In this document: positions 1 to 39,112 of the stretch, piece after piece
How the letters are laid out: every line of letters begins with the position of its first letter
How positions within the stretch are numbered: position 1 is the stretch's first letter
Virus record (IMG/VR): IMGVR_UViG_3300042868_000789
Coordinates: 1-47,831 of that record
Strand: one strand, 5' to 3'
Source: a virus
Length of the DNA stretch: 47,831 nucleotides
The notes under the pieces: model-generated
Seen by the model: the letters and a program-made list of their open reading frames with translations, nothing else
What the model was told of the DNA's origin: nothing
Database searches by the model: none
Translations under genes and position numbers: made by a program

Positions 1-360
1 TATTTCTCTACGATACCAACCATCACGTTCGCAGTAAGGCTCGTGTAGATGATATTCAACATCTGCTAATGTATAGTTATTATAGGCTTTAGTGACATGG
101 TCCGATGGAAAAGTAAATCTACTATGGTTAGTTGTTGATATTAATACCAACGGCTTATCTTTATGTTTGTATTCTTGTATTACCTGCTGAACTTGCAAAT
201 AGATAATATAATTACAGCAACCGCTTCTTGCATAAATCTTATAAGATGCATTCAGTGATTCAGCCACTAAACTTCCAAAACTTTTTTCAAAGCAATACTC
301 GGTGTCTATACCTGAGCCACAAGCAAAACTGTCGCCACAAATTGCAACTGTTTTTACCAT
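1..360 (-). CDS. SGNH/GDSL-like hydrolase, C-terminus beyond window
   Basis: An open frame of 120 codons runs from an ATG at 358-360 off the left edge without a stop. Its N-terminus (MVKTVAICGDSFACGSG) carries the block-I GDS motif of SGNH/GDSL hydrolases (Ser of GDSF as presumed nucleophile), followed by an alternating strand/helix pattern including LVLISTTNHSRF. The family hydrolyses esters or acetyl groups on carbohydrates and lipids; substrate here is unknown. The catalytic His block would lie outside the window and cannot be checked. The ATG overlaps the stop of the preceding gene (ATGGTAA), so translation is probably coupled. It is a second SGNH-type gene beside the next one, but the two are only distantly alike. 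Confidence 0.72.
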   Translation of the reverse strand, partial: MVKTVAICGDSFACGSGIDTEYCFEKSFGSLVAESLNASYKIYARSGCCNYIIYLQVQQVIQEYKHKDKPLVLISTTNHSRFTFPSDHVTKAYNNYTLADVEYHLHEPYCERDGWYRREI

Positions 361-1172
361 AGTTTATTTTCCTTGCCGTACTCATACATGTGATCCGCCC
401 ACCAAGTATGACCTAATTCACTCGGATGCATATTTAGAATACTATCCTTTTGTCCGGGACTGGTATCTTTATTAACAATATAATTGTGGAAACTATGAAT
501 CTTATCATCCTTGTGCATAAATCGCACAGGATCAATCATGTTCCATACCATCTCGTCGGGCTGACCTTGATAGTGTCTATTGTAAGGATCGTCGGTCCAC
601 TGACGAATGTGCATGTCATTACGCTGATAAAACGCTTGGAAGAATAAATGTTTGATGCCGTAGTTATTAAACAATGTTTGCAAATAAAATACTTGCTGAA
701 GATATCTATGTACATACTCTTCTGGATTCCACATATAAGCGGCATACAGATCAGCAAACTCGTTCAACGACTCTTGAGGATAGCGATGTTTCCACATTGG
801 CCATAATGTGTACCAAAAATGTTCAAATTTATTATTAATATTTCTGTAGTAAAAGTCTTTGCGTTCAGGGCTAGTAAATCCTACAACCACAAAAAGTTCA
901 CTAGTATCTCGTTTAGGTGCAAGATATTCTTGTGTGAGCCATCCTACAAGATTTCTAACAATTCTATCATTGCTGGCAGCGGGGTAACTTAAATTTACAA
1001 CATCGTCTACACCTAGATAGTTACCTAACTTTGTAGGCCAAATTTTAGGCAAGCGATAGGCATCATTAGGTTCGTCCCAATCTTTAACACTCTCTGGTAA
1101 TTTCGGATCACGGATTTCGCTACCGTAAGTCCAACTATCTCCACTGACAACTAATCTTTTAAAATTTGGCAT
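354..1172 (-). CDS. SGNH/GDSL-like hydrolase
   Basis: A 272-aa protein. It begins MPNFKRLVVSGDSWTYGSE, with the GDS nucleophile block at residues 11-13. A plausible C-terminal block V with catalytic His is seen in MHPSELGHTWWADHM (about residues 248-262). Between them is an aromatic-rich region. No signal peptide or membrane segment is visible, so it should be cytoplasmic or virion-borne. SGNH proteins typically remove acyl groups from sugars; in this operon of sugar-related genes a glycan deacylase role is an inference. The start overlaps the upstream gene by 14 nt and the stop overlaps the next start by 7 nt. Some phage proteins of this look are annotated only as hypothetical, so the enzymatic role is not certain. 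Confidence 0.72.
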   Translation of the reverse strand: MPNFKRLVVSGDSWTYGSEIRDPKLPESVKDWDEPNDAYRLPKIWPTKLGNYLGVDDVVNLSYPAASNDRIVRNLVGWLTQEYLAPKRDTSELFVVVGFTSPERKDFYYRNINNKFEHFWYTLWPMWKHRYPQESLNEFADLYAAYMWNPEEYVHRYLQQVFYLQTLFNNYGIKHLFFQAFYQRNDMHIRQWTDDPYNRHYQGQPDEMVWNMIDPVRFMHKDDKIHSFHNYIVNKDTSPGQKDSILNMHPSELGHTWWADHMYEYGKENKLW

Positions 1173-1893
1173 ATCTATCTCTTATTTTATCGTAATCTTT
1201 TGTTGGGTCTAAATGGGCAACATCTTCTCTCCAAGGTATTTCATTAATACCCTGCGCCCATCTAATATGTGCAATATTTTTTTCTATTGTCTTTTGATAT
1301 ATCATTGTGCCAGGACTTAGATAATAATCGCTGACATCCATTTTAACACCTTCTTTTAAAAAGATGTCATTATACAATGCTGTATATTTGTAATATCTAA
1401 AAGTATTACAAGCAATATCCATACTTTGACTGTCACCCCAGAAAATTAAATCACTAATACCATGATGTTCGTAATCTGTATTGTTAATGCCTACATTGCC
1501 ACCGGCACTATATATTGTTCTTGGAAGTATGGGTGTTACTGGAAAACTCGAATGTTCATGAAAAATTAAATCAAATCTAGTTTTAATAACAAGATCATAT
1601 CTAAAATTATTTTCAATCTCGTGTTGTTTCTTTAATTCATTAGCCATCATTATGCTATAAAGCATACTTCCAAAATTGCCAACTTCGTCTACATCAATAG
1701 AAGGCTCTTCTATGAATCTCTTTGGATTATACAAGGATTGCAATTTCAAACTAACATCCGGTTTCAATGTCCATGTATGATAGAAAATATCATAATTGTC
1801 TAGACTGCCAAAAAATCTACGGAAAACATCGTGGCTGAGAATGCCAGTGCGAAGTTGACCGCTAATACATATTGCAACTTTACCAGACTTCAA
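1159..1893 (-). CDS. putative glycosyltransferase-like protein (VAICxSGQLRT family), copy 2
   Basis: A 244-aa protein starting MKSGKVAICISGQLRTG. It shares with its upstream neighbour the N-terminal VAIC-x-SGQLRT block, a YDIFYHTW-like block, a SMLYSIMMANELKKQHEIENN helix and a V(I/V)(K/R)(T/A)R(F/Y)D block (TRFDL, residues 105-109). The final block sits where GT-A glycosyltransferases have a metal- or nucleotide-sugar-binding Asp, which is why I favour a glycosyltransferase-like fold. This is inference; the family is mostly unannotated. It lies in an overlapping gene string (14 nt overlaps on both sides), so it is co-transcribed with the paralogue and the SGNH genes. No membrane segment is visible. 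Confidence 0.6.
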   Translation of the reverse strand: MKSGKVAICISGQLRTGILSHDVFRRFFGSLDNYDIFYHTWTLKPDVSLKLQSLYNPKRFIEEPSIDVDEVGNFGSMLYSIMMANELKKQHEIENNFRYDLVIKTRFDLIFHEHSSFPVTPILPRTIYSAGGNVGINNTDYEHHGISDLIFWGDSQSMDIACNTFRYYKYTALYNDIFLKEGVKMDVSDYYLSPGTMIYQKTIEKNIAHIRWAQGINEIPWREDVAHLDPTKDYDKIRDRYAKF

Positions 1894-2653
1894 AGCCGCC
1901 CTCCTTTTTTGCGCAACTTAATTCTGCACTTTGTCTAAACAGTTTAACATCCCAATGATTATTTTGCAACCGAATATTATTTTTCTTTAAGTAATGGAAG
2001 AAAACAAACTCTGGTGTAAATGTTGTTTGTCCAGGATTAGTAAACCATTTTTTATCAATATACCCTAAATTAATATAGTAATCAGAAATTAGGTCGTATG
2101 TATCGCTATCTGAGATCCAAAATATATCACCCATACGTCCTTTGAATTCTGTAGGAGTCCATCCCATGTGAAACCCGTGCATGGTCATGGGAGATATATT
2201 TCTATAAAACTCTGTCATGTTATGAGTATAAAATGCGTCATACCTTGCGCGAACAACTGCTTTATATTGCAAGTCGTTTTCAATTTCGTATTGGCGTTTA
2301 AGATTTGCGGCTCGCATAATTCCATAAAACTGACTGACGAATGGTCCGTGTGTAATTGCCTGTGTTTCATTAAATGCAGGGAACTCTTTATAAGACTCTA
2401 CTAAAAACTTTTTAGGTTTCAGTGTGTCGATGATGTCTTGAATTTCACTATCTGCTACTGATACTGGTGGTTTGTTTACATCTGAAACACTATTCGGTAT
2501 AGTATTAAAATCCCAGATGTGGCAAAAGACATCTATGTTATCTCTAGTGCCACCGTGCTCTAAGATATGAATCCAGGTATCCTTACATTTACGCCATGTT
2601 CTTAGTTGTCCGCTAAAGCAAATAGCAACTTTATTGACGCCAGGATTGAACAT
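1880..2653 (-). CDS. putative glycosyltransferase-like protein (VAICxSGQLRT family), copy 1
   Basis: A 257-aa paralogue of the next gene. The frame is open upstream to a TTG at 2698, but the ATG at 2653 is chosen because it gives MFNPGVNKVAICFSGQLRT, which aligns with the neighbour's MKSGKVAICISGQLRT and limits the overlap with the upstream gene to 23 nt. Shared blocks are NIDVFCHIWDF, QFYGIMRAANLKRQYEIEN and AVVRARYDAFY; ARYD occupies the position of TRFD in the other copy. The two have diverged widely outside these blocks, suggesting an old duplication with different acceptors or sugars. Function (sugar transfer) is inferred from the GT-A-like block order and the operon context, not demonstrated. 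Confidence 0.6.
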   Translation of the reverse strand: MFNPGVNKVAICFSGQLRTWRKCKDTWIHILEHGGTRDNIDVFCHIWDFNTIPNSVSDVNKPPVSVADSEIQDIIDTLKPKKFLVESYKEFPAFNETQAITHGPFVSQFYGIMRAANLKRQYEIENDLQYKAVVRARYDAFYTHNMTEFYRNISPMTMHGFHMGWTPTEFKGRMGDIFWISDSDTYDLISDYYINLGYIDKKWFTNPGQTTFTPEFVFFHYLKKNNIRLQNNHWDVKLFRQSAELSCAKKEGGFEVW

Positions 2654-3065
2654 AGTCGCCACATACTGCAATTGCTCGTGAGACATAGTCATAATCAAGT
2701 TCCTTATCTAAAATAACAACAACAGCGTTGTCAATAATTTGTTTGTATGGATAGGTCCAAACATACCCTTTACTAGTTAGTACACGTTGATCATTTTCGT
2801 GCCAAAAACAATGTACATTGTTTGCCAACATTAACTCTAATGCTTCTGCATTTTTAGCGTGACACCAAAATCTAGTATTTTTTATAAAATTTAATTCAAC
2901 TTCGTAGGTCGGAGTATCGTGACCTAACATTATTTTACCGTCAATATACCATACATCAACTTCAACATCGAAGTCAGCACGAATTGCAGCCATGATGTAT
3001 TCTGGGCTATTTTCTTTGTCAGGAAAGACGTCTGTCAAATTTCCTCTGTGACTGATATATTTCAT
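2631..3065 (-). CDS. GDPD-like (PLC-type) phosphodiesterase, short form
   Basis: A 144-aa protein. Starting at the ATG at 3065 it shows the glycerophosphodiester phosphodiesterase signature in order: HRG (6-8), EN (18-19), E-x-D (35-37, within DFDVEVDV) and GHD (48-50). These are the general acid/base His residues and metal ligands of the family. It is much shorter than typical GDPD enzymes (about 240 aa or more), so the C-terminal half of the TIM barrel is reduced. The start is set by a classic ATGA overlap with the radical SAM stop; a longer frame beginning 15 nt upstream is less likely. It may cleave phosphodiester-linked headgroups or glycan phosphates; substrate unknown. Confidence 0.75.
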   Translation of the reverse strand: MKYISHRGNLTDVFPDKENSPEYIMAAIRADFDVEVDVWYIDGKIMLGHDTPTYEVELNFIKNTRFWCHAKNAEALELMLANNVHCFWHENDQRVLTSKGYVWTYPYKQIIDNAVVVILDKELDYDYVSRAIAVCGDYVQSWRQ

Positions 3066-4474
3066 AATGCTGCCTTGCAAAGTTTGTAAAACTCTTCCAT
3101 TTCTGGAAAAGTTTCTAAGAAATTCGTACCACGGCGGCGATCATGTTCATCAACAAAGCGCACAAAGTCCTTGCGTTTATTTACAGTACTCTGCTGTAGA
3201 TGCTCCTCAACTTTGAATGTACTTTCCAAAAGGTGATACACTCGTTGTAGTTTTTCTACTTCCCAATCATAAAACCCATTACCAGCAAGTGGTTGCCAGT
3301 TGGCTGTTTGACGATTTTGATACATGAATGTCACTTGCTCTTCTACCTTTTCAAGATAGTCTGGAGTAAGTATAGTCATACTCAAGTGTTCTGGATAACG
3401 TAGATACGGAATATCAAAAATTAGTGGATGAACACGATTTTGGTAGTGATTAAATGTATTGTTTAATTCTAGCAAATCTTTCATAAACGGCATGTAACTA
3501 GTGACACTTAAAATATTATAAGTACTCATAATGCCTAGTCTACCGTTAGGAACTTCGCGCATAAAAGTGTAGCAGTTATCCAACCATTTATTGTAGTCAA
3601 GCCCGTTGCGTATATACTCTGCACGTTTTCCATGTGCTTCGGCACTGGTAAACAAGGTAAAGTCTTTAATCATTCCTTCGCCTTGAATGCGTTTCATCTT
3701 TTCAACAAACTTTTTAAATAGTTCATCCGGGATGCAAAGATTACTGTTGATCATTAGTTCAAGATCAGGATTAGGATTCTCAATCACATAGTCAAGAACT
3801 TTAAATGTATCTTTACTTAACAAAGGTTCGCCGCCGGTAATACGAAATACTTTTAAAGACTTATATAACTCTGGCCACCAATGCCAAAAGGCATTAACAT
3901 ACGGATTGTAATCCTTGTGCGGTATTGGCATCTTATCAATGCTCTTTAACCAATCAATATTATTGAACTTGTTGCTAGTTGGATAAGCACCATGTTGTTC
4001 AATTTCCTCCATCCACTTGCTGGATACTTCAGGACTGCAATAACTACATTTAAAATTACAGACGTTGCTAAAACTAACTTCAACATACGTAGGATTAAAA
4101 TTTCCTGCGCCTACTTCAAGTACTTCATCTAAGTTCTGACTCCACTTCTCAGCACTCTTAGCAACACGATCACTGAAAATGTTTGCCTCTTTGACATTAT
4201 CTTCTACATTCCAACAGTAGCCACACTCTTCAGGTCTATCGCCGTCAAGCATACGCTGACGTTGTTGTTTTTTAAAAATAGTATTATGTAGTGCGCTCGG
4301 GTCTGCGGCAATTTCTTGTAATGGAATTTTATGCGTGTTAGGATGATGACAACTATGTGTATGCCCTGTGGCTAAATGAATAGTCACTTGATTCCATTTA
4401 GCCAAGCACATACCTGGACCAACTTGATCCAATGCGGCTTTTACACTAGGATAAAAATCAATTTTACTTACCAT
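3062..4474 (-). CDS. radical SAM protein with N-terminal extra cysteine cluster
   Basis: A 470-aa protein. The radical SAM motif C-x3-C-x2-C is at residues 139-146 (CNFKCSYC), preceded by a strand (YVEVSFSNV) and followed by the SAM-contacting GGEPL block (FRITGGEPLL, about residue 210). Before the core lies a second cysteine set, C23, C42 and C84-x2-C87 (ECGYCWN), which resembles the auxiliary-cluster ligands of SPASM/twitch proteins but lies at the N-terminus. The family does radical chemistry on peptides or small molecules; the substrate here is unknown. Start and stop overlap the neighbours (TAATG upstream, ATGA downstream), so it is translationally coupled to a glycosyltransferase-like gene and the GDPD-like gene. 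Confidence 0.9.
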   Translation of the reverse strand: MVSKIDFYPSVKAALDQVGPGMCLAKWNQVTIHLATGHTHSCHHPNTHKIPLQEIAADPSALHNTIFKKQQRQRMLDGDRPEECGYCWNVEDNVKEANIFSDRVAKSAEKWSQNLDEVLEVGAGNFNPTYVEVSFSNVCNFKCSYCSPEVSSKWMEEIEQHGAYPTSNKFNNIDWLKSIDKMPIPHKDYNPYVNAFWHWWPELYKSLKVFRITGGEPLLSKDTFKVLDYVIENPNPDLELMINSNLCIPDELFKKFVEKMKRIQGEGMIKDFTLFTSAEAHGKRAEYIRNGLDYNKWLDNCYTFMREVPNGRLGIMSTYNILSVTSYMPFMKDLLELNNTFNHYQNRVHPLIFDIPYLRYPEHLSMTILTPDYLEKVEEQVTFMYQNRQTANWQPLAGNGFYDWEVEKLQRVYHLLESTFKVEEHLQQSTVNKRKDFVRFVDEHDRRRGTNFLETFPEMEEFYKLCKAAL

Positions 4475-5367
4475 TATTTTCTCCTAATTATTCTAGGTGT
4501 ATTCATATAGACACTTTTAAAAAACTTACTACCTTCTTTATCTAACGCAGAAATTTCTAAACCTAATTCGTGTTTAAGCGTTTCACCTAATCCCATAATC
4601 TCATATGGTAACATTTTTTCAGTAACTTTACTATATTTTTCTTCCCACTGTGTGGTTAGATATTCAAAGTCGCGTACATTAGCATAGTCCCAATCGGTAC
4701 AGTTGGTCAAATAGCATCCTTCGCGGGCCCCATATATTGCCCAGTCACCATTTTCTAAGTCACTGCCAACACTGCACCAAATAAGAAGACGCTGATAATT
4801 TTGCCACCAAATGTCTTTAATACTGCTAACTTTGGCTCCTTGATCTAAACTCATCTTTACACCTTCACGGAAGCCTGCACGGAATGCTTGGAATGGACTT
4901 GCATTAATTATACTGGTAGAATAATTTTCGTTAAACTGATAGTATCTGTCATCAAAACAAAATTCAACAAGACCTTTAGTGTCGCTTGGATCCGAATTTT
5001 CATGTGTACGCATGTTGTTGACAAACTTACGTGTCCATAATTTAAGACCGCCATTACCGTACATTAAACTGTTAACATTGACTTTACCACACCAACTAAA
5101 CACATGGTCTGTGGTTAATCCTAATTCATCTAAATCAATTTCAACATTGATAAACTCTGGGTCAACAATGTTATCACCATCCACGGTGACAAAGTATTCT
5201 GTTTCACTCAAGTTGGCACAGGCTTTGTGTGCGGCATCGCTACCTTTAACTCCGTGGACTCGTTTGGCCCAAGGTATTTTGCTACACAAGTCTGCGTAAT
5301 TCTTCTCAGCGTTTGGTTCATCGTAACTGAGGTAAATGATATCTTGTTCTGCTATTCTTATTTTCAT
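4474..5367 (-). CDS. GT-A-like glycosyltransferase
   Basis: A 297-aa protein. The N-terminal half has strand IIYLSYDEPNA and then a helix and TEYFVTVDGDNIVDPEF, giving a DxD motif (D63-G-D65) at the position typical of GT-A nucleotide-sugar transferases. SDAAHKACANL just before it matches the usual helix preceding the DxD strand. The C-terminal half is rich in Trp/Tyr and has no recognisable second domain. No signal or membrane segment is seen. The gene starts in an ATGA overlap with its upstream neighbour and ends in a TAATG overlap with the radical SAM gene. Donor and acceptor are not predictable from sequence. Confidence 0.7.
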   Translation of the reverse strand: MKIRIAEQDIIYLSYDEPNAEKNYADLCSKIPWAKRVHGVKGSDAAHKACANLSETEYFVTVDGDNIVDPEFINVEIDLDELGLTTDHVFSWCGKVNVNSLMYGNGGLKLWTRKFVNNMRTHENSDPSDTKGLVEFCFDDRYYQFNENYSTSIINASPFQAFRAGFREGVKMSLDQGAKVSSIKDIWWQNYQRLLIWCSVGSDLENGDWAIYGAREGCYLTNCTDWDYANVRDFEYLTTQWEEKYSKVTEKMLPYEIMGLGETLKHELGLEISALDKEGSKFFKSVYMNTPRIIRRK

Positions 5368-5966
5368 AATTGTATATGTGCGTAACTGTCAAACATTCTG
5401 CGGCAGTATACACTAGTTGGAACTAGTGCTGACTCATGTTTGATTGTAAATGTACCTGTTGTTAATAGATCAAGTATTCTGAATTTTAATATTCCATATA
5501 ATACGTTGACGTCATCGGGTTTAGTAGCATAGAATGCCAAATTATAATTGACATGATGCGATTGACCTGAAAAGACACTTGTTATTTGCTCGCTAATTGT
5601 TAGTGTCCATGTACCATCAGCAGTGTTTTGAACTAACTTAACGCTTGCTTCTCCTGTGTTGGGCATTTGATACACTTCGTCATTCCAGTTAAAACTACGA
5701 ACATCCCCATCAGCAATATTTTGCATAATGTATTCATTGGTTTTAAAATCCATAACTACATGATAATCTGCTGGACTATCTTTATTAGATCGTATATCAG
5801 CAAGTTCAGCGTTATTAACTTGAATATAATTTGATTCGCCCGGTATCAAATAGTTAGAAATATGTTTAATCTCACCAGTCTCTGGATTAAAATAAACATA
5901 GTTGTTACTAGGCTTACTAAGTTCTTCTTGAAACGCGATAAGTTGCTCTAAAGTCATCTCAGACAT
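5364..5966 (-). CDS. unknown protein, beta-rich
   Basis: A 200-aa protein I do not recognise. It has a short N-terminal helix (MTLEQLIAFQEELSK), then YVYFNPETGEIKHISNYL, a segment style common in phage structural or fibre-associated proteins, and a C-terminal part with alternating beta-strand-like stretches. There are no cysteine clusters, membrane segments or catalytic motifs that I can name. It overlaps the glycosyltransferase-like gene downstream by ATGA and the upstream one by 13 nt, so it belongs to the same transcript. Its position between two sugar-transferase-like genes suggests it may be an acceptor, adaptor or accessory protein; this is only context. Confidence 0.6.
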   Translation of the reverse strand: MSEMTLEQLIAFQEELSKPSNNYVYFNPETGEIKHISNYLIPGESNYIQVNNAELADIRSNKDSPADYHVVMDFKTNEYIMQNIADGDVRSFNWNDEVYQMPNTGEASVKLVQNTADGTWTLTISEQITSVFSGQSHHVNYNLAFYATKPDDVNVLYGILKFRILDLLTTGTFTIKHESALVPTSVYCRRMFDSYAHIQL

Positions 5967-6796
5967 AGTGTCTCCAATTTTGAAACTATTTTATCTGTTA
6001 AGAAATCTTTTTCAGTATAATGGAAAACGCCCTGTTGTTGGTAATTGGCAATTTTTAATTTACACAAGTCGTCGAAATACACTGCAACACTTTGCATCCA
6101 ACTGTCTGTAGGCTGAGACCAACCTTGTATGCGGCTTTTCATATGTATAAATGTCACAGGATCATGTTGTGTGTTAGTAACCTGTTCAGTAACATCCATT
6201 ACTTTTGCGGCAAGTGCGGCTGTAATGTCCATGCTGGCTCTATCTGGGTAATGTTCGCTAACAAATTTACCGTAAAATAGTTCCCAGTTGTTGGTAATAA
6301 CTTCAACCCACGAATAGAACTCCTTGGCAAAATCACTTTTCTTGAAATAATGTAAACCTGAATATAGATTAGGTAACTGATTAGCAGTAAATGCTTTACG
6401 ATAATAATCACTGGTCACTGTTTTATTACGATAGTCTAACACTTTTCCTGTGTAATATACATCGTAGTGCTCAAAGGTATCCCAAAAACTATTCAAGTCG
6501 TCTAAGATTAGCATATCAGTGTCTAATACAACTGTTTGATCATAAGGACTTGCGTGATAAATCTTCCAACGATTCTCAACTTTGAATCTACTATTAACTG
6601 CGGCATCTCCCCAGGGAATAGGAATAATGTTTTCAAATACAGACTTATACTCTTCCGGAACTACATCGTCTGTAATAATGGATATGTTGGACACTGAACG
6701 TTGACTCAGTTTTAAACTTAATGCTAGTGCATAGGCTTGTCTAATATAATCGATTGTGTCAGTATTTTGTGCTAGGACTACGTAACCTTTAGTCAT
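5954..6796 (-). CDS. GT8-like glycosyltransferase, copy 2
   Basis: A 280-aa protein. MTKGYVVLAQNTDTIDYIRQA resembles the first strand/helix of GT8 (glycogenin/LgtC-like) transferases, and QTVVLDTDMLIL carries the DxD motif (D92-T-D94) used for Mn2+/nucleotide-sugar binding. Downstream are the expected acceptor-side segments (LYSGLHYFKKSDFAKEF) and a late His/Lys block (FIHMKSRIQGW), like the conserved C-terminal HxxG/K region of the family. It is a tandem paralogue of the upstream gene (same block order). It overlaps its neighbours by 8 and 13 nt. Likely cytoplasmic; sugar specificity unknown. Confidence 0.72.
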   Translation of the reverse strand: MTKGYVVLAQNTDTIDYIRQAYALALSLKLSQRSVSNISIITDDVVPEEYKSVFENIIPIPWGDAAVNSRFKVENRWKIYHASPYDQTVVLDTDMLILDDLNSFWDTFEHYDVYYTGKVLDYRNKTVTSDYYRKAFTANQLPNLYSGLHYFKKSDFAKEFYSWVEVITNNWELFYGKFVSEHYPDRASMDITAALAAKVMDVTEQVTNTQHDPVTFIHMKSRIQGWSQPTDSWMQSVAVYFDDLCKLKIANYQQQGVFHYTEKDFLTDKIVSKLETLCLR

Positions 6797-7670
6797 TGGC
6801 TTGTCCTTTCATTACCCGATGTAAACTAAACTTGTTCATTAGATGTACACTAACGTCTTTAGTTTTCATAAGTGTATATTCGCCTTGACGATTTTGTTTT
6901 TCAAGCAGTATACGGAAGCCTGAATCATCCATGCTAACTAATACATCTTTATCTAAAGTAAACACCATACGTCCTGGCATTTTTCCTTGCCATTGTTCGC
7001 CGGTATAGCCGTTGATAATGTGTAGTGCAATACTAAATGCATGGTCGTTTCGATACATATGACTGGCGAACTGATAAACTAGTTTGTAGTAATCCCAATT
7101 ATCTCGCACATGATCTACTAAGTTGAAGAATGTTTCTGTTAGTTCGCTTTTACGAAACCAAAAAGCAGTTGCCCAATAAAAATCTACAGTATAGTCACTG
7201 ACCTTTTCAAATTCTGCATGATGTCGATACCCTGCAAGATCGTAACCTTCTTTATAAATTAAAAAGTCCTGCTCCTGTTCCCAACAGTTCTTTAGAATAT
7301 CATTGGCTAGGAAGTAATCGCTATCAATGACTAGTGTTTCATCGTAGGGCGTGAGTTCGTATGTCTTAGTACGTAGACTATTTTTAAAATTACTTTTCTT
7401 GTGAGCAAGTGTACCGTCAGAAAACTGTCTAATATTTCGAATATTTAAAAGTTCTGCTGTGGATTTTAAAGAAGGATCTTGCCACACATCGATTACTGTG
7501 TCAAAATAAATCCTGTCGGGGTCAACTTTATCAACTTGTGTAGAAGAATCGGTCACTAGACAGACAGGTACACCTAAGTGCGTCTTAACTCTTCGAGCAG
7601 CCTCTTTGGCCATTGTGATGTAATCTATTTCCTCGTTGTTAAAGGCGTAGATTAAACAACCTCTACTCAT
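6789..7670 (-). CDS. GT8-like glycosyltransferase, copy 1
   Basis: A 293-aa protein. GCLIYAFNNEEIDYITMA at the N-terminus parallels the next gene's YVVLAQNTDTIDYIRQA, and ETLVIDSDYFLAND gives a D-S-D motif (116-118) at the position of the neighbour's D-T-D. Later blocks FYWATAFWFRKSELTETFF and the C-terminal VSVHLMNKFSLHRV correspond to the paralogue's FKKSDF and FIHMKSRIQGW blocks. A gene pair produced by duplication and strong divergence is the simplest reading. The start lies in an ATGA overlap with the small first gene of the operon. Confidence 0.7.
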   Translation of the reverse strand: MSRGCLIYAFNNEEIDYITMAKEAARRVKTHLGVPVCLVTDSSTQVDKVDPDRIYFDTVIDVWQDPSLKSTAELLNIRNIRQFSDGTLAHKKSNFKNSLRTKTYELTPYDETLVIDSDYFLANDILKNCWEQEQDFLIYKEGYDLAGYRHHAEFEKVSDYTVDFYWATAFWFRKSELTETFFNLVDHVRDNWDYYKLVYQFASHMYRNDHAFSIALHIINGYTGEQWQGKMPGRMVFTLDKDVLVSMDDSGFRILLEKQNRQGEYTLMKTKDVSVHLMNKFSLHRVMKGQAND

Positions 7671-8014
7671 TGAGTGATGCCCTCTACACTGCGTTGCTTA
7701 CGTAGTTTTTGATATTCTGTATAGTATTCGTTGTTGGCTGTAAAGAACTTGTTCATGACAGTTTCAAAAAAGTCATTAAGATTTGAAATTTCTACAGGAA
7801 CATCATTATCGTCGATTAAAATGACTCCAGTGTCGTTACCGGTATCTACAAGTAGTTTAACAAAATTGATTAGTTCTTTGTTGACAGCAAAGCATCCGCC
7901 GTTGTGGTAGTAAATGATGTCAGCCAAATACTTTTCTTTAAGAGCCCGCCTTTGGTTATTAAGTGTTACACTGTAATTGGCAAACTCTAATGCTTTGGAT
8001 AAGCGTTCATCCAT
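7667..8014 (-). CDS. small unknown protein, first gene of the early operon
   Basis: A 115-aa, mostly helical, soluble-looking protein (MDERLSKALEFANYSVTL at the start, EYYTEYQKLRKQRSVEG near the end). I do not recognise a domain. Its start is well supported: AGGAG lies 7 nt upstream of the ATG at 8012-8014 and a consensus sigma70 promoter ends about 20 nt upstream. It is the promoter-proximal gene of the overlapping string that continues to the left edge of the window, and its stop forms ATGA with the next gene. Being first and small, it could be a regulator, chaperone or adaptor, but nothing in the sequence decides this. Confidence 0.75.
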   Translation of the reverse strand: MDERLSKALEFANYSVTLNNQRRALKEKYLADIIYYHNGGCFAVNKELINFVKLLVDTGNDTGVILIDDNDVPVEISNLNDFFETVMNKFFTANNEYYTEYQKLRKQRSVEGITQ

Positions 8015-8021
8015 TAAAAAT

Positions 8022-8058
8022 CTCCTAGGCTATACTGTGTATTATATAGCACTAGGAG
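8022..8058 (-). promoter_or_regulatory. long dyad containing the Shine-Dalgarno; candidate hairpin switch/operator
   Basis: Left arm CTCCTAGGCTATA (8022-8034) and right arm TATAGCACTAGGAG (8045-8058) are complementary over 13 bp with one bulged base; the loop is 10 nt (8035-8044). On the minus strand the 3' arm contains AGGAG, the ribosome-binding site of the 8014 gene, and is followed by ATTTTTA. A transcript coming from the fibre genes would contain both arms and could hide the RBS or terminate. The predicted sigma70 transcript starts at about 8034 and would contain only the 3' arm. A protein-binding operator is an alternative. Confidence 0.65.
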
Positions 8059-8069
8059 ACAGATGTCAA
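8041..8069 (-). promoter_or_regulatory. perfect-consensus sigma70 promoter
   Basis: Read on the minus strand, TTGACA (8069-8064) and TATAAT (8046-8041) are separated by exactly 17 nt: a full match to both consensus hexamers. The predicted start is near 8034, giving a leader of about 20 nt with AGGAG in front of the ATG at 8014. This is a host-type (early) promoter, unlike the ATAAATA motifs in front of the tail genes. Confidence 0.85.
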
Positions 8070-8077
8070 GAAAAATA

Positions 8078-8995
8078 TTAGGTAATAGCGGTTGTTGTAG
8101 TTAAAGTTGGTGAATTTACCTGCACGTTTGAGCCTGTTGCACGGCGAATATCTAAACGACTTGTTAGTGTACCAGTGACAACTTCGTCGAAATTTGGATT
8201 ACCACCTTTATTGTCGTTGAATTGAATATTAAAAAATACGTTACCGGCATTGTCTGTACGTGCATTAATGATGTATGTGTTAGTAGCATAGTTACCAGAA
8301 CCAACACGTCGGAAAATTTCTTGATTACTTGTTGTTAATTGGTAAAAACCAATTGCCTGCGCAGTTCCTGCCGAGCCTGATCTGGTTGTACCATTATGAT
8401 TCATAGTAATAGTACCCATAGTAGAAAACATCGTAGACCAATCTGTGAAAATTTGGTTAACACCAGTATCGCTAGTACCGCCTGTTAGTGTAACACGAAA
8501 GCGAATGTCTCCGCCACTGTTGAAGTAAAAGCGGGCTGCGTTTTGACTACCAAAAGCCACAGTAACGTTGTGCGTTAACAACCCGTTCCAACTTGCAGTA
8601 CGTTGACTAGTATTGGCATCACTGGTATCTGTGAACTGATTTCCCAGTGTGCCGCCAGCACCTAGAGACAATTTGTTAGTCTCTATGGTAGTCATTTGAC
8701 TTTCAAGGTTGGCTGCAAACGCATCAGTAACTTGGTCTGCGGTAGTAACTAACGGAAATGCTCCTGTACCCGGACTCGGTGCTTCGTTATTAGCAGTTTG
8801 GTGCTGTCGAGCCTTGATCATATCTGTGCGTAAATTCAACACTCTGATAAGGTCTACGTTACTGCCCACTGCAACTTGGGCACTGACCAAAGCCTGTCCG
8901 TATCCGCTGTTACCAGAGCCTGTACCCATGATAACATTAATCCTACTCTGTAGGTTATTATATCTTGTTGCTGTAATTAAATCACCGACTGCCAT
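8078..8995 (-). CDS. tail fibre/virion structural protein
   Basis: A 305-aa protein. The N-terminal part (GDLITATRYNNLQSRINVIMG, then SGYGQALVSAQVAVGS and LRTDMIKARQHQT) is helical and resembles a segment found in fibre-associated proteins of marine T4-like phages. The rest is Gly/Thr/Asn-rich beta sequence typical of fibres (NHNGTTRSGSAGTAQ, NAGNVFFNIQFND). No collar or chaperone domain is visible. AAGGAAG precedes the ATG at a good distance. It is the last gene of the fibre block and is followed directly by the early promoter of the sugar operon. Virion location is inferred from composition and neighbours. Confidence 0.65.
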   Translation of the reverse strand: MAVGDLITATRYNNLQSRINVIMGTGSGNSGYGQALVSAQVAVGSNVDLIRVLNLRTDMIKARQHQTANNEAPSPGTGAFPLVTTADQVTDAFAANLESQMTTIETNKLSLGAGGTLGNQFTDTSDANTSQRTASWNGLLTHNVTVAFGSQNAARFYFNSGGDIRFRVTLTGGTSDTGVNQIFTDWSTMFSTMGTITMNHNGTTRSGSAGTAQAIGFYQLTTSNQEIFRRVGSGNYATNTYIINARTDNAGNVFFNIQFNDNKGGNPNFDEVVTGTLTSRLDIRRATGSNVQVNSPTLTTTTAIT

Positions 8996-9029
8996 AATTC
9001 TTCCTTTTAACCTTGTCTATTATATATCA

Positions 9030-10580
9030 TTATAATACTAATACTTCTATTTTTTTGATGCCAACGTCATCGCTAGATTCTAACGCAACTCCAAAAACAT
9101 CTGTGTGCTGGTGAAATCCGGCAGCAATAGCAGATCCATTGTCCGATGCTACTAAACGTTGTCCTTTTCGTACTGCGCCAATAACTTTACATGGAACACG
9201 ACCTTTTAAAGCAACATAAGTTCCGCCTTCTAATTCGCTATTCATCATATATGCAGGTGCAGTAGAAACTACACCAATTGCACGTTCTCCAAATTTAACA
9301 GCAGTAACTTCCTTTTCTCCGCCAATACACACGACGGTTCCTGCTTCGTATTCAGCATCAGCAAGATATTTTTCTGCTAAGTCAGCGTAACGTGCTGTTG
9401 TTGCTGTACCGTTAAAGATAGTAGCAGTAATATTTCCTGAACTATCACGACAAGCCACTGTATTTGCAGTTGCCGCAGTACTTGCTTGACGGAATACTGG
9501 ATTATTAAATAAATCCACACCCACTTGTAATGTTGCCGCTTGAGTGGCTGTACCTGTAAATGTGTTTGAGTAAATATTAGCCCATTTCTTAGAATTTGTT
9601 CCTAAGAAGAAAGTGCTGTCAGATCCTGGGGAAAGACTTAATGTTGTTGCATCGATAACTGCAATATCTTTTGGTATGCCGGCTTGTCTTGCACGGAAAA
9701 TTAATTTTGGGCCGGATTGATTTTCATACACCGGTGTTTGTTGATCGTCTGGATCAATATACACTGCCAGGTCTTGGCCTAATCCAACTGTTAATCCGTC
9801 GTCAGATGAGAAGTTAACTAATGTATTATTAGTACCTTCTGAAATTTCTTTTAGTTTTGCTCCAGAAACAAAGTTGCCTAGACTGTCTACGATGCCTTGA
9901 GCAGCCGCAGAAATGCCCCAAAATCTGTGAGCACTACTAGTAACTTGTTGACCTTCTGTTAATACGCTGACTGTGTTAGGCAGTGTCATGCCTTTCTTAA
10001 TAACACTATAACCTGCAATAGGGTTGGTTGTATTATCAAGAGTAAACTCTGCTTTAGAAATAATATAAGTTACTTCTTCAATTCCAGTACCGCCAATAGT
10101 AGCGGCAATGATAGAATATAAGTTAGCATCGGTACCTCTTACTTGACGTGATACTAACTGAGTAGTACCAGCGCCTGCTGTTTGCGGACCAACTACTAAC
10201 CAGTCGGAAGCAGTCCTAATTTTTAATTGATTTAGTCCAGAATCGAACCATTGGTCTCCTTCTGTGGCACCCAAGGGCGCAGTTGTACCGTATTCTACGC
10301 CGCCGGCTGTTTTAAACACTTTAACACCGCCTGGTGCTTCTCCTGTATAAAACTTGATTTTTTTAGAAGGAACATCGTACCATAGTTGGCCGCGAATTGC
10401 TCTAGGCGGCGGACTACTACTGGCAAAATTTTCCAGCATGTGTAAGAAATTTTCGTTTTGAAGTTCGCCGTAGCCAGCGTAATTCTTACCAATAAGTTTG
10501 ATATCGAGCGTCTGATCTACAGTACCGTCTTCGATAGTACTAATTGCTTGCCCGTCAAATCTATTAATAACATAAGACAT
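9030..10580 (-). CDS. tail fibre/collar-type structural protein, paralogue 3
   Basis: A 516-aa protein. Residues 1-75 carry a module shared with the next two upstream genes: an Asp-Gly-rich start, the GKNYAGYGELQNENFLHMLENFAS block and AIRGQLWYD. The middle is beta-rich. The C-terminus holds a distinct domain (ADLAEKYLADAEYEAGTVV through IGVVSTAPAYMMN to HQHTDVFGVALESSDD) of the type found at the ends of phage fibre proteins. The ATG has AGGGGTG upstream, and an ATAAATA late motif lies 25-32 nt before it. Presumably a tail-tip fibre; receptor specificity cannot be read. Confidence 0.75.
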   Translation of the reverse strand: MSYVINRFDGQAISTIEDGTVDQTLDIKLIGKNYAGYGELQNENFLHMLENFASSSPPPRAIRGQLWYDVPSKKIKFYTGEAPGGVKVFKTAGGVEYGTTAPLGATEGDQWFDSGLNQLKIRTASDWLVVGPQTAGAGTTQLVSRQVRGTDANLYSIIAATIGGTGIEEVTYIISKAEFTLDNTTNPIAGYSVIKKGMTLPNTVSVLTEGQQVTSSAHRFWGISAAAQGIVDSLGNFVSGAKLKEISEGTNNTLVNFSSDDGLTVGLGQDLAVYIDPDDQQTPVYENQSGPKLIFRARQAGIPKDIAVIDATTLSLSPGSDSTFFLGTNSKKWANIYSNTFTGTATQAATLQVGVDLFNNPVFRQASTAATANTVACRDSSGNITATIFNGTATTARYADLAEKYLADAEYEAGTVVCIGGEKEVTAVKFGERAIGVVSTAPAYMMNSELEGGTYVALKGRVPCKVIGAVRKGQRLVASDNGSAIAAGFHQHTDVFGVALESSDDVGIKKIEVLVL

Positions 10581-10604
10581 ATATATTCACCCCTGGTATA
10601 ATTT

Positions 10605-10612
10605 TATTTATC
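10605..10612 (-). promoter_or_regulatory. T4-late-like promoter (GATAAATA)
   Basis: On the minus strand the sequence reads ACGATAAATA in the gap before the 516-aa fibre gene, followed by AGGGGTG as ribosome site. It shares the ten bases ACGATAAATA with the motif before gene 6 and matches the T4 late consensus TATAAATA at seven of eight positions. Confidence 0.7.
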
Positions 10613-10644
10613 GTATATTTTGGAATACGCTCGCTCGCCCAACA

Positions 10645-12510
10645 TTACGCTAAATCCTCAGTAAATGCCCAATTTCCACTGGTCATTGTAAACTTCTTGT
10701 TTTGACGGGTAACTATTACTGTTAATGCTGGTGCTAGAATTGTCTGCCCTGTGACAATATCTGTTACTGCGGCAGTAGTGCCGGGAGGCTGACCTAAAGC
10801 ACTGCTAATATCCACTGTACTAAACTCATCGCCTACGTTTGGACTATAGTCTAAATCTGCAGAAGTTGCAGTTGTTGCTGTTCCGTGTAGACGTAAAATT
10901 GTTCCGTTAATTGCAATACCCTGCTGTTCAGCAAGAGTACCATTGGGATTGTAAAAAGGTGCAATGTCATCAAGAATAGCGGCAATCTCGGTATTATCTA
11001 GCCCGGTGATATCCATACTAAATGCAATACCTCGAGCAAATACTGCATCGTCCACATACTGTTTGTTAGTAGCATCTTGCAAATTAGTTGGTAGAGGCAA
11101 ATCTATAATCTTTTTACCATTTACTGTAACTGCGCCAGCAACAGGGTTAAGCCCAATATTACCACTTGCTAGACTGATTGTGCCGTCTTGTAAATTTAGG
11201 CCGCTGGTGCCGGTGCCAGCCATTTGTAAGGAAATTAAATTGCCAACACTGACTAAACTAGAGGTGATAACTGTTGTACCTAGCGTATATTGACCTAATC
11301 CATTGGGAGCAATGATTTCATCGTTACCTATAGAAAATGTTTTTCCAGATGCTAGTTTTAAGTTTTCTGAAAGATCCCAACTATTACTGACATTGTTATA
11401 AACGATTGTTTTATCAGTGGAGCCTTTGAGTGTGATGCCGCCGCCTGCGGCAGTTAAGTTTGTAGGGAAATCTGTTTTTCCTAGTGTGATATTTTTATCT
11501 TCTACTTCAAGTACTGATGTGTTTAAAGTAGTTGTTGCACCGCCGACAAATATATCACCAGATACTTTTAAATCGCCGGTTATATCTAGCGTTGATGTAG
11601 GTGTTTCATTGAAAATTCCAACACGTTGTCCGTTTCCAGCAATAGTAATTCCAGAAACTGTAGTGGATCCTGATTTAACTTTTAGTAGAATTGATTTATT
11701 TTCAATTTGATTTTCGATTATTAAATCATTTGACGATATATATTGTCTTGCCTGGCTGGCTGTACCAATGTCTAGTCCGTCATTGTTCTGAATGAATACT
11801 CGTTCTGTAAATGTATTTTCTTCGTTGTTAAAAACTAGTTCAGATGCAGTTTTTGATGTTACACCGTCCTCGAGCAAAATACTTTCGCTTCTTGTAACTG
11901 TAACATCAAATTTTAAATTTGCTAGAGTTGCGGCATTAAATCCTATTTTTACTGGTTTGTCTACTGTACCGTAACCTGGAATAGGTAGTTTAGGAAAAAA
12001 TGCTGTACTACTAAAGATACCTAATAGCACATTTTTAACAAATAACTGGCAAATACTATGACTTACTCCGTCTATGTCTATAACTGTATCTATTTTAAAT
12101 CCAGTTACGCCTTGTTGTGCTGTGTATATTGGTCCTACTAAAATCAAATCTGTACCGTCATACATGTACATTTGATTTGTTTCATTGTTTATCCACAGAT
12201 CGCCCGTGGTCAACGGGTCTGGAACTCTCGGACTAACTTGCGGGCCACCGGATGCTCTAAATATATTTCCATCAAACACATTAAGTCTATTAGTTTGTGT
12301 GTCGAACCAAATTTGACCTTTAATTGCATTTTCAGGTGCAGTAGTAGAAGCAAAATTTTCTAGTAATTTTACAAAATTTTCATTGAATGCTTCTCCAAAT
12401 CCTACTGAATTTCTACCGATCAATGTAAGCGCAGTAGCAGAAGTATCCAACGTACCATCTGGAATCTTTGTTAATTCATTGCCATCTGTTTTATTAATAG
12501 TATATGTCAT
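10645..12510 (-). CDS. tail fibre structural protein, paralogue 2
   Basis: A 621-aa protein. It begins with the shared module (INKTDGNELTKI, GRNSVGFGEAFNENFVKLLENFAS, AIKGQIWFD; residues 3-75), followed by LYDG/MYDG-type repeats and long beta-helix-like stretches (for example VSGDIFVGGATTTLNTSVLEV) as in trimeric fibres. The C-terminal 120 residues (from about residue 480, ATNKQYVDDAVFARG on) form another domain. Only 6 nt separate it from the upstream paralogue, so it is probably translated from the same late transcript. Part of the adsorption apparatus by context. Confidence 0.75.
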   Translation of the reverse strand: MTYTINKTDGNELTKIPDGTLDTSATALTLIGRNSVGFGEAFNENFVKLLENFASTTAPENAIKGQIWFDTQTNRLNVFDGNIFRASGGPQVSPRVPDPLTTGDLWINNETNQMYMYDGTDLILVGPIYTAQQGVTGFKIDTVIDIDGVSHSICQLFVKNVLLGIFSSTAFFPKLPIPGYGTVDKPVKIGFNAATLANLKFDVTVTRSESILLEDGVTSKTASELVFNNEENTFTERVFIQNNDGLDIGTASQARQYISSNDLIIENQIENKSILLKVKSGSTTVSGITIAGNGQRVGIFNETPTSTLDITGDLKVSGDIFVGGATTTLNTSVLEVEDKNITLGKTDFPTNLTAAGGGITLKGSTDKTIVYNNVSNSWDLSENLKLASGKTFSIGNDEIIAPNGLGQYTLGTTVITSSLVSVGNLISLQMAGTGTSGLNLQDGTISLASGNIGLNPVAGAVTVNGKKIIDLPLPTNLQDATNKQYVDDAVFARGIAFSMDITGLDNTEIAAILDDIAPFYNPNGTLAEQQGIAINGTILRLHGTATTATSADLDYSPNVGDEFSTVDISSALGQPPGTTAAVTDIVTGQTILAPALTVIVTRQNKKFTMTSGNWAFTEDLA

Positions 12511-12516
12511 TTCCGT

Positions 12517-14877
12517 TTACGCTCCAGTGTAGATAATAAAGTTTAAAGCCATGAACGGGTTCAATATGTTAACTGCTGTCTGGCTAAATGTGCCTGGAGG
12601 ATCTGTTAAGATACCGCCTGAATTGCCTAGATACTGTCCTAGATTTGCATCATCTGGAGGATTACCTGTGCCCGGAACAGCATCTGTATCTGAAGGTGAA
12701 CCTGGAGCATTTCTATAAGCAAAGTATGGGTTACCTGCATTACCTCGTAGATCGTGCTCGTGATCCGGAAGATTAGTCTTTTGTAATGTAATTTCCTGAT
12801 TACCGCCGCCTGGTCGTGCTTGATAAGGATTTGCTTGATTAATATCTGCTTTAGGATCTGTTACACGATTTGCACTTGCGCCGATAGTTTCAATTTCAAC
12901 GGTAGGATCCCATCCTGGACCACTACCTGGTCCTTGAGGCACACGAAGACCGTTGTTCATGTTATCAACACCTAGTGGGAAACGTCCACGCAGATCCGGT
13001 AGTCTAAATGTACCTAGACCTAATAATGTTGCTGAATCACCGTAGGTATATTTGATAACATCAAATAATTCTGAATACTCAGATGTTTGAACTTCCGATC
13101 CGTCACATAGTAACCACCCTGCTGGTGCAGTTGGACCACCGTAGGGAATAATACTTGCTACAGGTATTCCTGGAATCGCAGTAAACAAATCTGATTTTTT
13201 AATCTTCTTAAGACCTTCTACACCCCTGCTTACTACAAATTCATCGTTTTCAGCAATCGATGATACTTGAGGTTTATCTGCAATGAACGTATCACTTAAT
13301 CTTGTAAAAAATCTTTTTCTATTGCCCAAAGGCTCTAAACTTTGAATGCTACCAACTGTTGTTTGGTCACCAGTTACTGTACTTGCAAAACTTACACTAG
13401 TTACTGTGGCTCCTGTTACAACGAATGTTCCTCTATATGCAATAGGAACAATATTTGAAACTGTTATTGTAGACCCTATAGGATATGGAGGTACTGTCTG
13501 AGGGGCAAACGTCAATGTTGCCGTCGTGCCATTTCCCGATGCTGTTAAAGTTGATAGTGTCGGAATTCCTCTCTGTCCGTCAAACTCTACTTGACTACTA
13601 ACCACGTCTCCAGTTAATTCAAACACTGTTGAACTTGCAAGTTTACTTGCAGAACCTGAAACGTTGCCTGTAACACTACCCACTAAGGATCCATAAAAAC
13701 TTGCATCCATTCTACTGGCAATAATTCTATTAAAGCGTTTTTCTGTTGTTCCTATATCTGCACCAAGGTCAAAATTAGGAACTATTGCTCCACCAATTAT
13801 GATGTCTTGATCTTCAGCAACTACTAAGTCGCCACCAATATTAACTGTGCCCGAAACACCTACACCACCTGTTACAACTACTGCTCCAGTGGTGGGGCTT
13901 AAAGATGCTTCATCGTTGGTAAATTTGGAAATACCGTTGACTAGTAATGTTCCGTTAACATCTACTGTTTCTTGAGGAGCAAAATTGTTAGGGCCTAGAC
14001 CAATACGTTCGTTGCTGTCAACACGCACCATAGTGCGGATTGTTCCGTTATTATTAATACGAATGTCTGTACTAGATCCAGTTGTCTTATTAAGTAAAAC
14101 ACCAATAGTGCCTTCAAGACCCAGTGTAACTTGCCTATCTGAACCGATTGCTAAACCAGTACTATTACGAATATCAATACCAAAGTTAGTACTACTGGTT
14201 ACATCACTACGTAAAAAATTTGCAGTTGGTACTGAGGTTGATCCTACACGTAACGATGTTGCATTTTCTGAAATACCGTAGTAATTAGAATAAAGTGTGC
14301 TAAGGTTAACACCGGCCTTGATTTCTGGAAAACCTGTGATAACAGCCTTAGGAATGAAACTTACTTTAGAAATAATCATTACTCGTTCGCCGCCGGCAAA
14401 CTGACTAACTACAGACTGACTGTTATTAGATGTGTCAACAATAATTTCAGGTTCTGCTCCTGTTTTTGCACCGCTGGATATGTTTGGTCCAACTAATATC
14501 CAACTAGATCCTGTAAACAAATATAATTGTTGAGTATCAGTATTGACCCATAGATCTCCAGCAATACTGCTTTCTGAATCCGGGGCTGTGGTGCCTTTCT
14601 TTAAACCGCCGGCTGCGCCCCAACCTGTTCCGTCGTAGACTTTAAGTTGGTTAACACCTTCTGTAGTATCATACCACAGTTGTCCTTGAATTGGATTCAC
14701 TGGCTCGGCTGGGTTGGCAAAGTTTTCTAACATGTGTAACATGTTTTCGCCAATGACTTGTCCGTAGCCTGTGGTATTACGTCCAGGGAATCGAAGAGTC
14801 GTTGTATCGTCGATGGTGTTATCTTCGACGATTATCGATCCGTTTAACTGATTAGTTCTAAAAATTCTATATGACAT
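12517..14877 (-). CDS. tail fibre with phage tail collar domain, paralogue 1
   Basis: A 786-aa protein with three parts. Residues 1-75 are the shared module (GRNTTGYGQVIGENMLHMLENFAN, PIQGQLWYD). The middle is beta-rich, with SSIAGDLWVNT- and LYLF-type repeats. The C-terminal part is a tail-collar domain: VASIIPYGGPTAPAGWLLCDG, then FRLPDLRGRFPLG, ending NPFMALNFIIYTG, as in T4 gp12 and related short fibres. The collar domain in T4 gp12 belongs to the receptor-binding, metal-binding end. Several His in the DHEHDLRG region could bind metal. It is the first of three fibre paralogues and lies 2 nt from its upstream neighbour. Confidence 0.85.
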   Translation of the reverse strand: MSYRIFRTNQLNGSIIVEDNTIDDTTTLRFPGRNTTGYGQVIGENMLHMLENFANPAEPVNPIQGQLWYDTTEGVNQLKVYDGTGWGAAGGLKKGTTAPDSESSIAGDLWVNTDTQQLYLFTGSSWILVGPNISSGAKTGAEPEIIVDTSNNSQSVVSQFAGGERVMIISKVSFIPKAVITGFPEIKAGVNLSTLYSNYYGISENATSLRVGSTSVPTANFLRSDVTSSTNFGIDIRNSTGLAIGSDRQVTLGLEGTIGVLLNKTTGSSTDIRINNNGTIRTMVRVDSNERIGLGPNNFAPQETVDVNGTLLVNGISKFTNDEASLSPTTGAVVVTGGVGVSGTVNIGGDLVVAEDQDIIIGGAIVPNFDLGADIGTTEKRFNRIIASRMDASFYGSLVGSVTGNVSGSASKLASSTVFELTGDVVSSQVEFDGQRGIPTLSTLTASGNGTTATLTFAPQTVPPYPIGSTITVSNIVPIAYRGTFVVTGATVTSVSFASTVTGDQTTVGSIQSLEPLGNRKRFFTRLSDTFIADKPQVSSIAENDEFVVSRGVEGLKKIKKSDLFTAIPGIPVASIIPYGGPTAPAGWLLCDGSEVQTSEYSELFDVIKYTYGDSATLLGLGTFRLPDLRGRFPLGVDNMNNGLRVPQGPGSGPGWDPTVEIETIGASANRVTDPKADINQANPYQARPGGGNQEITLQKTNLPDHEHDLRGNAGNPYFAYRNAPGSPSDTDAVPGTGNPPDDANLGQYLGNSGGILTDPPGTFSQTAVNILNPFMALNFIIYTGA

Positions 14878-14879
14878 AA

Positions 14880-15494
14880 TTAAGCCTCATTGAAACCGGT
14901 TAAACTTTGTACTCGAACAGTATAGTCAACTTGAATTAATCGGTTCAAAGATTTTTGCACTGGATGAAAAATAACATGTGTTAGTAGTCTACCTGGGCCA
15001 TTAGGATTATAACTGCGCAATCCTAGTTCATCAAACACGTATGCACTTTCAGTAAATGTTGCATTATCAAATGCTTCCTGATCTGCTGGCTCACCGTAGT
15101 CAAGCAAACAACTAACAATAATGTCTGTGTAGTTTGTTCCAGTTAAGTGTCGTGTTTCAATCTTGTTACGCACTGGATCGATGTTGTTTGCTGAACGATC
15201 GTCCACAACTTTTGTGTAAGTTTCATTGTATAGACCGCTGTTAATGCCTATAGTGTTTGGTGTTAAGTATGTAATGATACCTGTTGGATCTACTGTAGTG
15301 CCACCATTGCCAAATGCCATTTCATAGATAAATCCTCGACCTTCGTTGCCGAGACTTTCTGCTAATGAAATACTCATGTTTTCGTAATGGATTGCATTAC
15401 GCTTGTCAATAGCGACTTCTCCTGTTTCAGGATACCAAATTTTGATATGCCCTTCTACGTGGAAGCCAGCGTTTTCTTTAAGTGCGTTAGTCAT
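14880..15494 (-). CDS. virion structural protein of the fibre/baseplate block
   Basis: A 204-aa protein with HIKIWYPETGEVAIDKRNAIHYENMS near the N-terminus, a MAFGNGGT block, and a C-terminal FDELGLRSYNPNGPGRLLTHVIFHP segment ending in beta strands (LIQVDYTVRVQSL). This style is common in uncharacterised structural proteins of marine T4-like phages, but I cannot assign a T4 gene number. An AATAAATA late motif sits 20-27 nt upstream of its ATG and AGGT acts as a weak ribosome site. It is located between the giant protein and the fibre genes, so attachment of fibres to the baseplate is a reasonable guess. Confidence 0.6.
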   Translation of the reverse strand: MTNALKENAGFHVEGHIKIWYPETGEVAIDKRNAIHYENMSISLAESLGNEGRGFIYEMAFGNGGTTVDPTGIITYLTPNTIGINSGLYNETYTKVVDDRSANNIDPVRNKIETRHLTGTNYTDIIVSCLLDYGEPADQEAFDNATFTESAYVFDELGLRSYNPNGPGRLLTHVIFHPVQKSLNRLIQVDYTVRVQSLTGFNEA

Positions 15495-15513
15495 GTTTTC
15501 TACCTATTTCTTA

Positions 15514-15521
15514 TATTTATT
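15514..15521 (-). promoter_or_regulatory. T4-late-like promoter (AATAAATA)
   Basis: The minus strand reads GAATAAATATAAGAAATAGG just upstream of the ATG at 15494. The motif overlaps the last codons of the giant gene and would start a transcript for the fibre block. It matches seven of eight bases of TATAAATA. Confidence 0.6.
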
Positions 15522-32755: not shown

Positions 32756-32772
32756 ATATGGCCCTCACATGT

Positions 32773-32780
32773 TATTTATC
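32773..32780 (-). promoter_or_regulatory. T4-late-like promoter (GATAAATA) for gene 6
   Basis: ACGATAAATAAC on the minus strand in the 50-nt gap between genes 25 and 6, followed by the GAGGG ribosome site. The identical decamer precedes the 516-aa fibre gene. Confidence 0.7.
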
Positions 32781-32805
32781 GTGTAAGAAAATGTGGGTAG
32801 TTAAT

Positions 32806-33240: not shown

Positions 33241-33245
33241 AGCAG

Positions 33246-33253
33246 TATTTATT
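33246..33253 (-). promoter_or_regulatory. possible T4-late-like promoter (AATAAATA) before gene 25
   Basis: The minus strand reads AATAAATACTGCTATG, so the motif ends 5 nt before the start codon of gene 25. A transcript start would fall inside or at the start codon, which makes the site doubtful as a promoter for 25, though it could serve gene 6 and downstream genes. Confidence 0.35.
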
Positions 33254-34622: not shown

Positions 34623-34655
34623 AGTGATCCTTGATGTTTAAAAATGTATGTATAT

Positions 34656-37880: not shown

Positions 37881-37883
37881 TTG

Positions 37884-39055: not shown

Positions 39056-39077
39056 GTTTGGCTATCTCCGTTACATA

Positions 39078-39085
39078 TATTTATT
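39078..39085 (-). promoter_or_regulatory. T4-late-like promoter (AATAAATA) for the baseplate operon
   Basis: The minus strand reads GTCAATAAATATATG followed by the GGAGA ribosome site of the 289-aa gene. It overlaps the -35 element of the divergent early promoter for gene 55 by two bases. Confidence 0.65.
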
Positions 39086-39112
39086 GACTTTATTATCTAC
39101 TGAGTTTATTAT
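39084..39112 (+). promoter_or_regulatory. sigma70-like promoter for gene 55
   Basis: TTGACT (39084-39089) and TATTAT (39107-39112) with 17-nt spacing, one mismatch to consensus in each hexamer. The predicted start near 39119 puts AGAGGAG (39118-39124) at the 5' end of the message, with the ATG at 39138. Confidence 0.75.

Follow-up and report, generated by a model that had tools for sequence, protein, structure and literature searches.

The T4 genes e, soc, 49 and I-TevI, and likewise I-TevII/III, segB and Aeh1 mobE, carry a late promoter nested in a hairpin that hides the Shine-Dalgarno (SD) sequence, and a 100-fold block is reported for T4 e (PMC3014915, PMC2988022). The element described here, in a 47,831-nucleotide stretch of viral DNA analysed at its full length (the window), resembles those of e, soc and I-TevI: the promoter lies in the hairpin, RNA started upstream hides the SD, and RNA started at the nested promoter, without the 5' strand, is open, which for the window is a prediction. 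The nested promoter of the T4 genes is late and early read-through is silenced, whereas that of the window is of the sigma70 type with read-through expected late, and unlike the T4 hairpins that of the window has a terminator-like U-tract. Protection of IS10 (Tn10) and IS200 against outside promoters is cited in a passage of PMC2965389. As predicted for the window, outside RNA is blocked, RNA from the native promoter escapes and the promoter is of the host type, although the insertion sequences have a mobile-element context and no temporal programme. Davis, Simons and Kleckner in 1985 (IS10) and Beuzon et al. in 1999 (IS200) reportedly found the transposase to be shielded by a terminator and/or RNA structure over the start. 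In L050, L058, L121, L174 and other relatives of the window, an ordinary terminator ahead of a promoter also separates the fibre operon from the next one, but there the two signals stand apart and any SD present is free. Among the open-licence papers searched, we found no early-promoter version and no promoter inside a terminator. The principle is already known; the novelty lies in a T4-like phage using sigma70 polarity, in the fusion with a terminator and in a promoter class that is exchanged at one orthologous junction.

Layout of the element

By gene content, the window, a viral record, belongs to a T4-like myovirus, with genes for baseplate wedge and hub proteins, fibre proteins, a gp55-type late sigma factor and SbcC/SbcD-like proteins; it has no near DNA match in the annotated phage collection. 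One ORF of 4603 aa (15517-29328, minus strand) lies between structural genes. After the stop codon of the gene at 8078-8995 (minus strand) comes TTCTTGACATCTGTCTCCTAGTGCTATATAATACACAGTATAGCCTAGGAGATTTTTAATG; in the element, about 60 bases in size, promoter, ribosome-binding site and predicted terminator hairpin are packed into one sequence. The features, in order of transcription, are as follows.

10610-10617, minus strand: T4-type late promoter GATAAATA, upstream of the fibre gene 9030-10580
8078-10580, minus strand: upstream fibre/structural genes, whose transcript would run through the element
8064-8069, minus strand: -35 hexamer TTGACA, part of a 12/12 promoter match
8045-8059, minus strand: hairpin 5' arm, TCTCCTAG (8059-8052), bulged T (8051) and GCTATA (8050-8045), only in RNA started upstream
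8041-8046, minus strand: -10 hexamer TATAAT, after a 17-nt spacer, sharing bases with the inner portion of the 5' arm
8021-8034, minus strand: hairpin 3' arm, TATAGC (8034-8029) and CTAGGAGA (8028-8021), beginning at about the predicted transcription start and containing the SD
8022-8026, minus strand: SD sequence AGGAG
8016-8020, minus strand: U-run TTTTT, directly after the stem and between SD and ATG, a terminator-like tail
7667-8014, minus strand: 115-aa gene (o8014), first of the operon, ATG at 8014-8012, predicted helix/beta-hairpin/helix fold
354-7670, minus strand: remaining operon, with two related 293/280-aa proteins, 200-aa and 297-aa proteins, a radical SAM protein, a DUF6071-like protein and others

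Direct reading of 8069-8041 confirms the perfect TTGACA-17-TATAAT on the minus strand that a preliminary description had reported, and a promoter scan found no other 12/12 match in 1-20000 and none scoring 11 or 12 in 28000-47831. The position of the -10 hexamer predicts a transcription start at about 8034, and because of this the entire 5' arm would lie upstream of the start even with an error of 2-3 nt. The dyad, initially given as 13 bp, has 14 pairs (8 + 6) with a one-nucleotide bulge; its other reported properties, an AGGAG of the first operon gene within the 3' arm and a 5' arm ahead of the predicted start, hold as described. TAAATA of the T4-type late promoter TATAAATA was not found within the element, and an Rfam search of 7900-8300 gave no match.

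Other structural genes carry ATAAATA-like sites, while the gp55 gene is preceded by TTGACT-17-TATTAT and the SbcD-like gene by TTGACA-17-TACACT. The T4 counterparts of the gp55 and SbcD-like genes are not known to be late. From the T4 analogy we infer an early nested promoter and late read-through.

The model of the 115-aa protein (pLDDT 90.7, good confidence) runs helix, beta-hairpin, helix, beta-hairpin, helix. A fold search found no significant match in the PDB, one uncharacterised viral match (E 1.3e-6) and weak DUF4376 matches, and tblastn found no relative in the annotated phage collection. The proteins of 6789-7670 and 5954-6796 (minus strand) share about 24% identity; the former contains VIDSDYF, a DSD motif of the kind seen in GT-A glycosyltransferases, and family searches gave no firm name.

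Predicted folding of the two transcripts and the terminator-like signal

The preliminary description had called for folding of both transcript forms. In the read-through form, the hairpin is predicted at -20.9 kcal/mol (z -5.1, 0/200 shuffles), and opening the SD would cost 13.2 kcal/mol, against 0.1 kcal/mol in the promoter-started RNA, so that the SD is predicted to be foldable only in read-through RNA. None of 1000 dinucleotide shuffles, in which only the part upstream of the start was shuffled, reached 13.2 kcal/mol; with the promoter hexamers held fixed, p was 0.007, the floor for 150 shuffles. Ranked by pairing across the predicted start, among promoter-gene pairs taken from a simple scan, o8014 came first of 9 in the window, first of 103 in a 328-kb relative (G009) and second of 12 in an 89-kb relative (G001). 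The observation of a dyad joined to a promoter is confirmed as real.

The d'Aubenton-Carafa terminator score is d = 18.16 x nT + 96.59 x Y - 116.87, with zero as the cut-off. The window hairpin with its U-run, TTTTTAATGG (-20.3 kcal/mol), scores d = 4.5, a modestly positive value, with a long loop and a T5 tail; 0/300 shuffles of the window's upstream part gave d > 0. Only two hairpins in the entire window score above zero, the second being antisense and inside the 4603-aa ORF, and no other positive-scoring candidate lies between the fibre-gene late promoter (about 10610) and the element. The element is the only sense-strand candidate and the window's best, exactly where relatives carry an ordinary terminator, in line with the earlier suggestion that the ATTTTTA behind the stem might permit termination. 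Among nested hairpins, positive scores occur in the window, L006 (6.5), L163 (15.9) and L170 (4.6); they also occur in 10 lineages with a separate upstream terminator, and the remaining lineages have d < -30 or no candidate. The hairpin followed by U5-U6 scores as an intrinsic terminator, and it is therefore probably more than a translational device.

The same junction in related phages

Since a scan of IMG/VR for the exact dyad pattern found no match, the dyad was traced through the 115-aa gene instead. About 190 relatives of this gene occur on IMG/VR contigs; the best 80 were retained and more added by further searches. In all, 107 distinct upstream sequences fell into 41 lineages at about 72% identity. 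The gene order of fibre genes, o8014, o7670, o6796 and o5367 recurs on about 100 contigs, and the conserved surroundings also include (o5966) ahead of o5367 and a radical SAM protein behind it. The 305-aa fibre-adjacent gene, single in the window (8078-8995), is present as two tandem copies in many relatives (e.g. L014, L018, L029).

Promoter, including the -35 hexamer, and dyad are both kept across the window clade (L002-L007). The inner closing pair is G-C in the window, L003 and L004, G.U in L005 and A-U in L006, which provides the paired change with an intermediate that had been asked of related phages; this compensatory change concerns one base pair only, in a register that follows the pairing, as MAFFT sets the gap beside the inner pair differently. 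A promoter kept where the dyad is lost had been named as the finding that would count against the proposal. Within the clade (>80% identity) the two always occur together; at a distance the adverse case does occur, the sigma70 lineages L057, L021, L096 and L099 keeping the promoter but lacking both a significant nested hairpin and a terminator.

Beyond the clade, L163/L164 carry TTGACT-17-TATAAT within CCTCCGTTATGTATAAT/ATTATACATAAACGGAGG, in a hairpin CCTCCGTT.../...AACGGAGG with T6 and then ATG behind it; this is an independent copy of the sigma70-in-hairpin design in a different sequence. In L170 the late promoter GATAAATA lies inside CCCCCGTT/AACGGGGG and is followed by T5, a further independent copy of the nested design, with a late promoter. 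L029, L049, L055 and L064 have a late promoter in an SD-hiding hairpin without a U-tract, the T4 soc/e arrangement; they and L170 share with T4 e and soc the T4-type late promoter in the hairpin. L014 has an SD-hiding nested hairpin, again without a U-tract, and L019 with 14 near relatives has a similar, weaker hairpin around a late promoter (p = 0.066), while in the late-promoter lineages L046, L016, L053 and L157 the nested hairpin is not significant. Plain terminators of the type AAAGCCAGT...ACTGGCTTTTTTTT stand before a late promoter in L050, L058 and most of L111-L155, and a plain terminator precedes a sigma70 promoter in L174/L176. Between the sister phages L163 and L174, the nested hairpin has been exchanged for a separate terminator with the promoter type unchanged. 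Combining the shuffle tests gives p = 3.5e-7 across 15 sigma70 lineages and 1.6e-5 across 15 late ones; both values are indicative only, because the lineages are related and not fully independent. A tree of o8014 and o7670 requires at least 5 changes of promoter class, and its sigma70 promoters fall into two separate regions, one on the window's side and one comprising L163/L173/L174; single branches need care because the tree was made by a quick method.

A probable compact insulator and its alternatives

Why would a phage place terminator, promoter and SD on the same bases? We think it fairly likely that the element is a compact insulator, a terminator plus SD lock, with a nested early-type promoter. 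Polymerase arriving from the late fibre genes would copy both arms, and the 14-bp hairpin with five U residues formed in the read-through RNA should stop part of the polymerases in the manner of an intrinsic terminator; in RNA escaping termination, the SD would be buried and the 115-aa gene left untranslated. Host sigma70-type holoenzyme would start at about 8034, inside the element, and yield an RNA that, without the 5' arm, could not fold and would expose its SD about 10 nt behind the 5' end. With promoter-started RNA open and read-through blocked, the operon would be expressed only from its own early-type promoter, and the small gene past the tail-fibre genes is probably read in this way alone.

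Another explanation would be an ordinary intrinsic terminator that serves the fibre operon and overlaps the next promoter by chance, the pairing with the SD being a by-product of packing. It is consistent with the positive score of the window's sole sense-strand candidate and with the terminators that other lineages have at the same junction. Several lineages, on the other hand, hide the SD in nested hairpins unable to terminate, and the combined p value for the late-promoter lineages also argues against this explanation, which we regard as unlikely.

Slightly less favoured, and in our view likewise unlikely, is a purely translational early-on/late-off switch, in which late read-through RNA is full length with its SD hidden and termination plays no part. 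The 13.2 kcal/mol lock fits such a switch, and SD hiding alone can be selected, because five lineages (L029, L049, L055, L064 and L014) hide the SD without a U-tract. Against it stand the U5-U6 right behind the stem in the window, L006, L163 and L170, the four nested hairpins with d > 0, and the plain terminators at the same junction in 10 other lineages. 

The preliminary description had proposed an early-on/late-off translational switch, and this is partly supported: the SD is predicted to be hidden only in read-through RNA, the fibre gene has its own late promoter with no other positive-scoring terminator before the element, close relatives keep the dyad with a compensatory change, and L163/L164 repeat the layout in other sequence. 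The emphasis on timing has to be revised, because many orthologues carry a late promoter there, and the property shared by the locus is insulation and not early/late timing. The theme of the junction appears from its sequences to be insulation from read-through, by a sigma70-nested hairpin, a late-nested hairpin or a terminator followed by a promoter, and early-on/late-off behaviour is plausibly a consequence of the insulator.

A dimeric repressor binding the dyad as a DNA operator over the promoter is very improbable, even though dyad symmetry spanning the -10 hexamer and the start is in the usual place for an operator. The distance between the outer arms varies by 2 among close relatives (23 nt for the window against 25 for L006; 19 for L163 against 21 for L164), which makes it unlikely that the arms are read as two half-sites by a dimeric protein, and we rejected the protein operator because half-site spacing is not fixed among relatives. 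The one-nucleotide bulge, arms that are always complementary to the SD and arm sequences that vary among lineages also speak against it. A chance palindrome in AT-rich promoter DNA is scarcely credible: short AT stems do form easily around TATAAT and some sigma70 lineages are no better than shuffles, but the shuffling results for the window, with and without fixed hexamers, the clade-wide conservation and the independent L163 and L170 copies all oppose it.

The compact insulator may also be viewed more broadly, and we give about even chances to the reading that, across this large set of environmental T4-like phages, a one-piece insulator has evolved repeatedly at the fibre/o8014 junction, with terminator, promoter and SD on the same bases, in which the sigma70 and gp55-type late classes are exchanged and the design is kept, producing true mirror images of soc/e, early-on/late-off included. 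A phage could in this manner separate neighbouring operons without spending extra bases, and the T4 late-gene hairpin may be an instance of a broader insulating design in which the promoter can be early or late. L163 against L174, and the window clade against L170, offer natural comparisons of termination and SD hiding.

Other nested hairpins

Elsewhere in the window, at 46075-46127 (minus strand), a late promoter TATAAATA lies inside a hairpin AAAATA-T-GCGCATA / TATGCGC-TATTTT. This hairpin, which likewise has a single bulged T and a T-rich tail, precedes a baseplate-hub-like gene (45218-46075) and has the SD CGGAG just beyond it. In the 328-kb relative G009, one more hairpin that scores as a terminator encloses a promoter (61396-61432, L203), a late promoter in TCTGCCTA...TAGGCAGA with T7, directly before the ATG of an unrelated 116-aa gene (61440); tested as a paralogue, this second nested hairpin of G009 was rejected. 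Before the 1152-aa baseplate wedge gene of the window (32755-32800, minus strand), CCCACAT upstream of a late promoter can pair with the SD-containing ATGTGAGGG, possibly a further nested hairpin of the T4 type.
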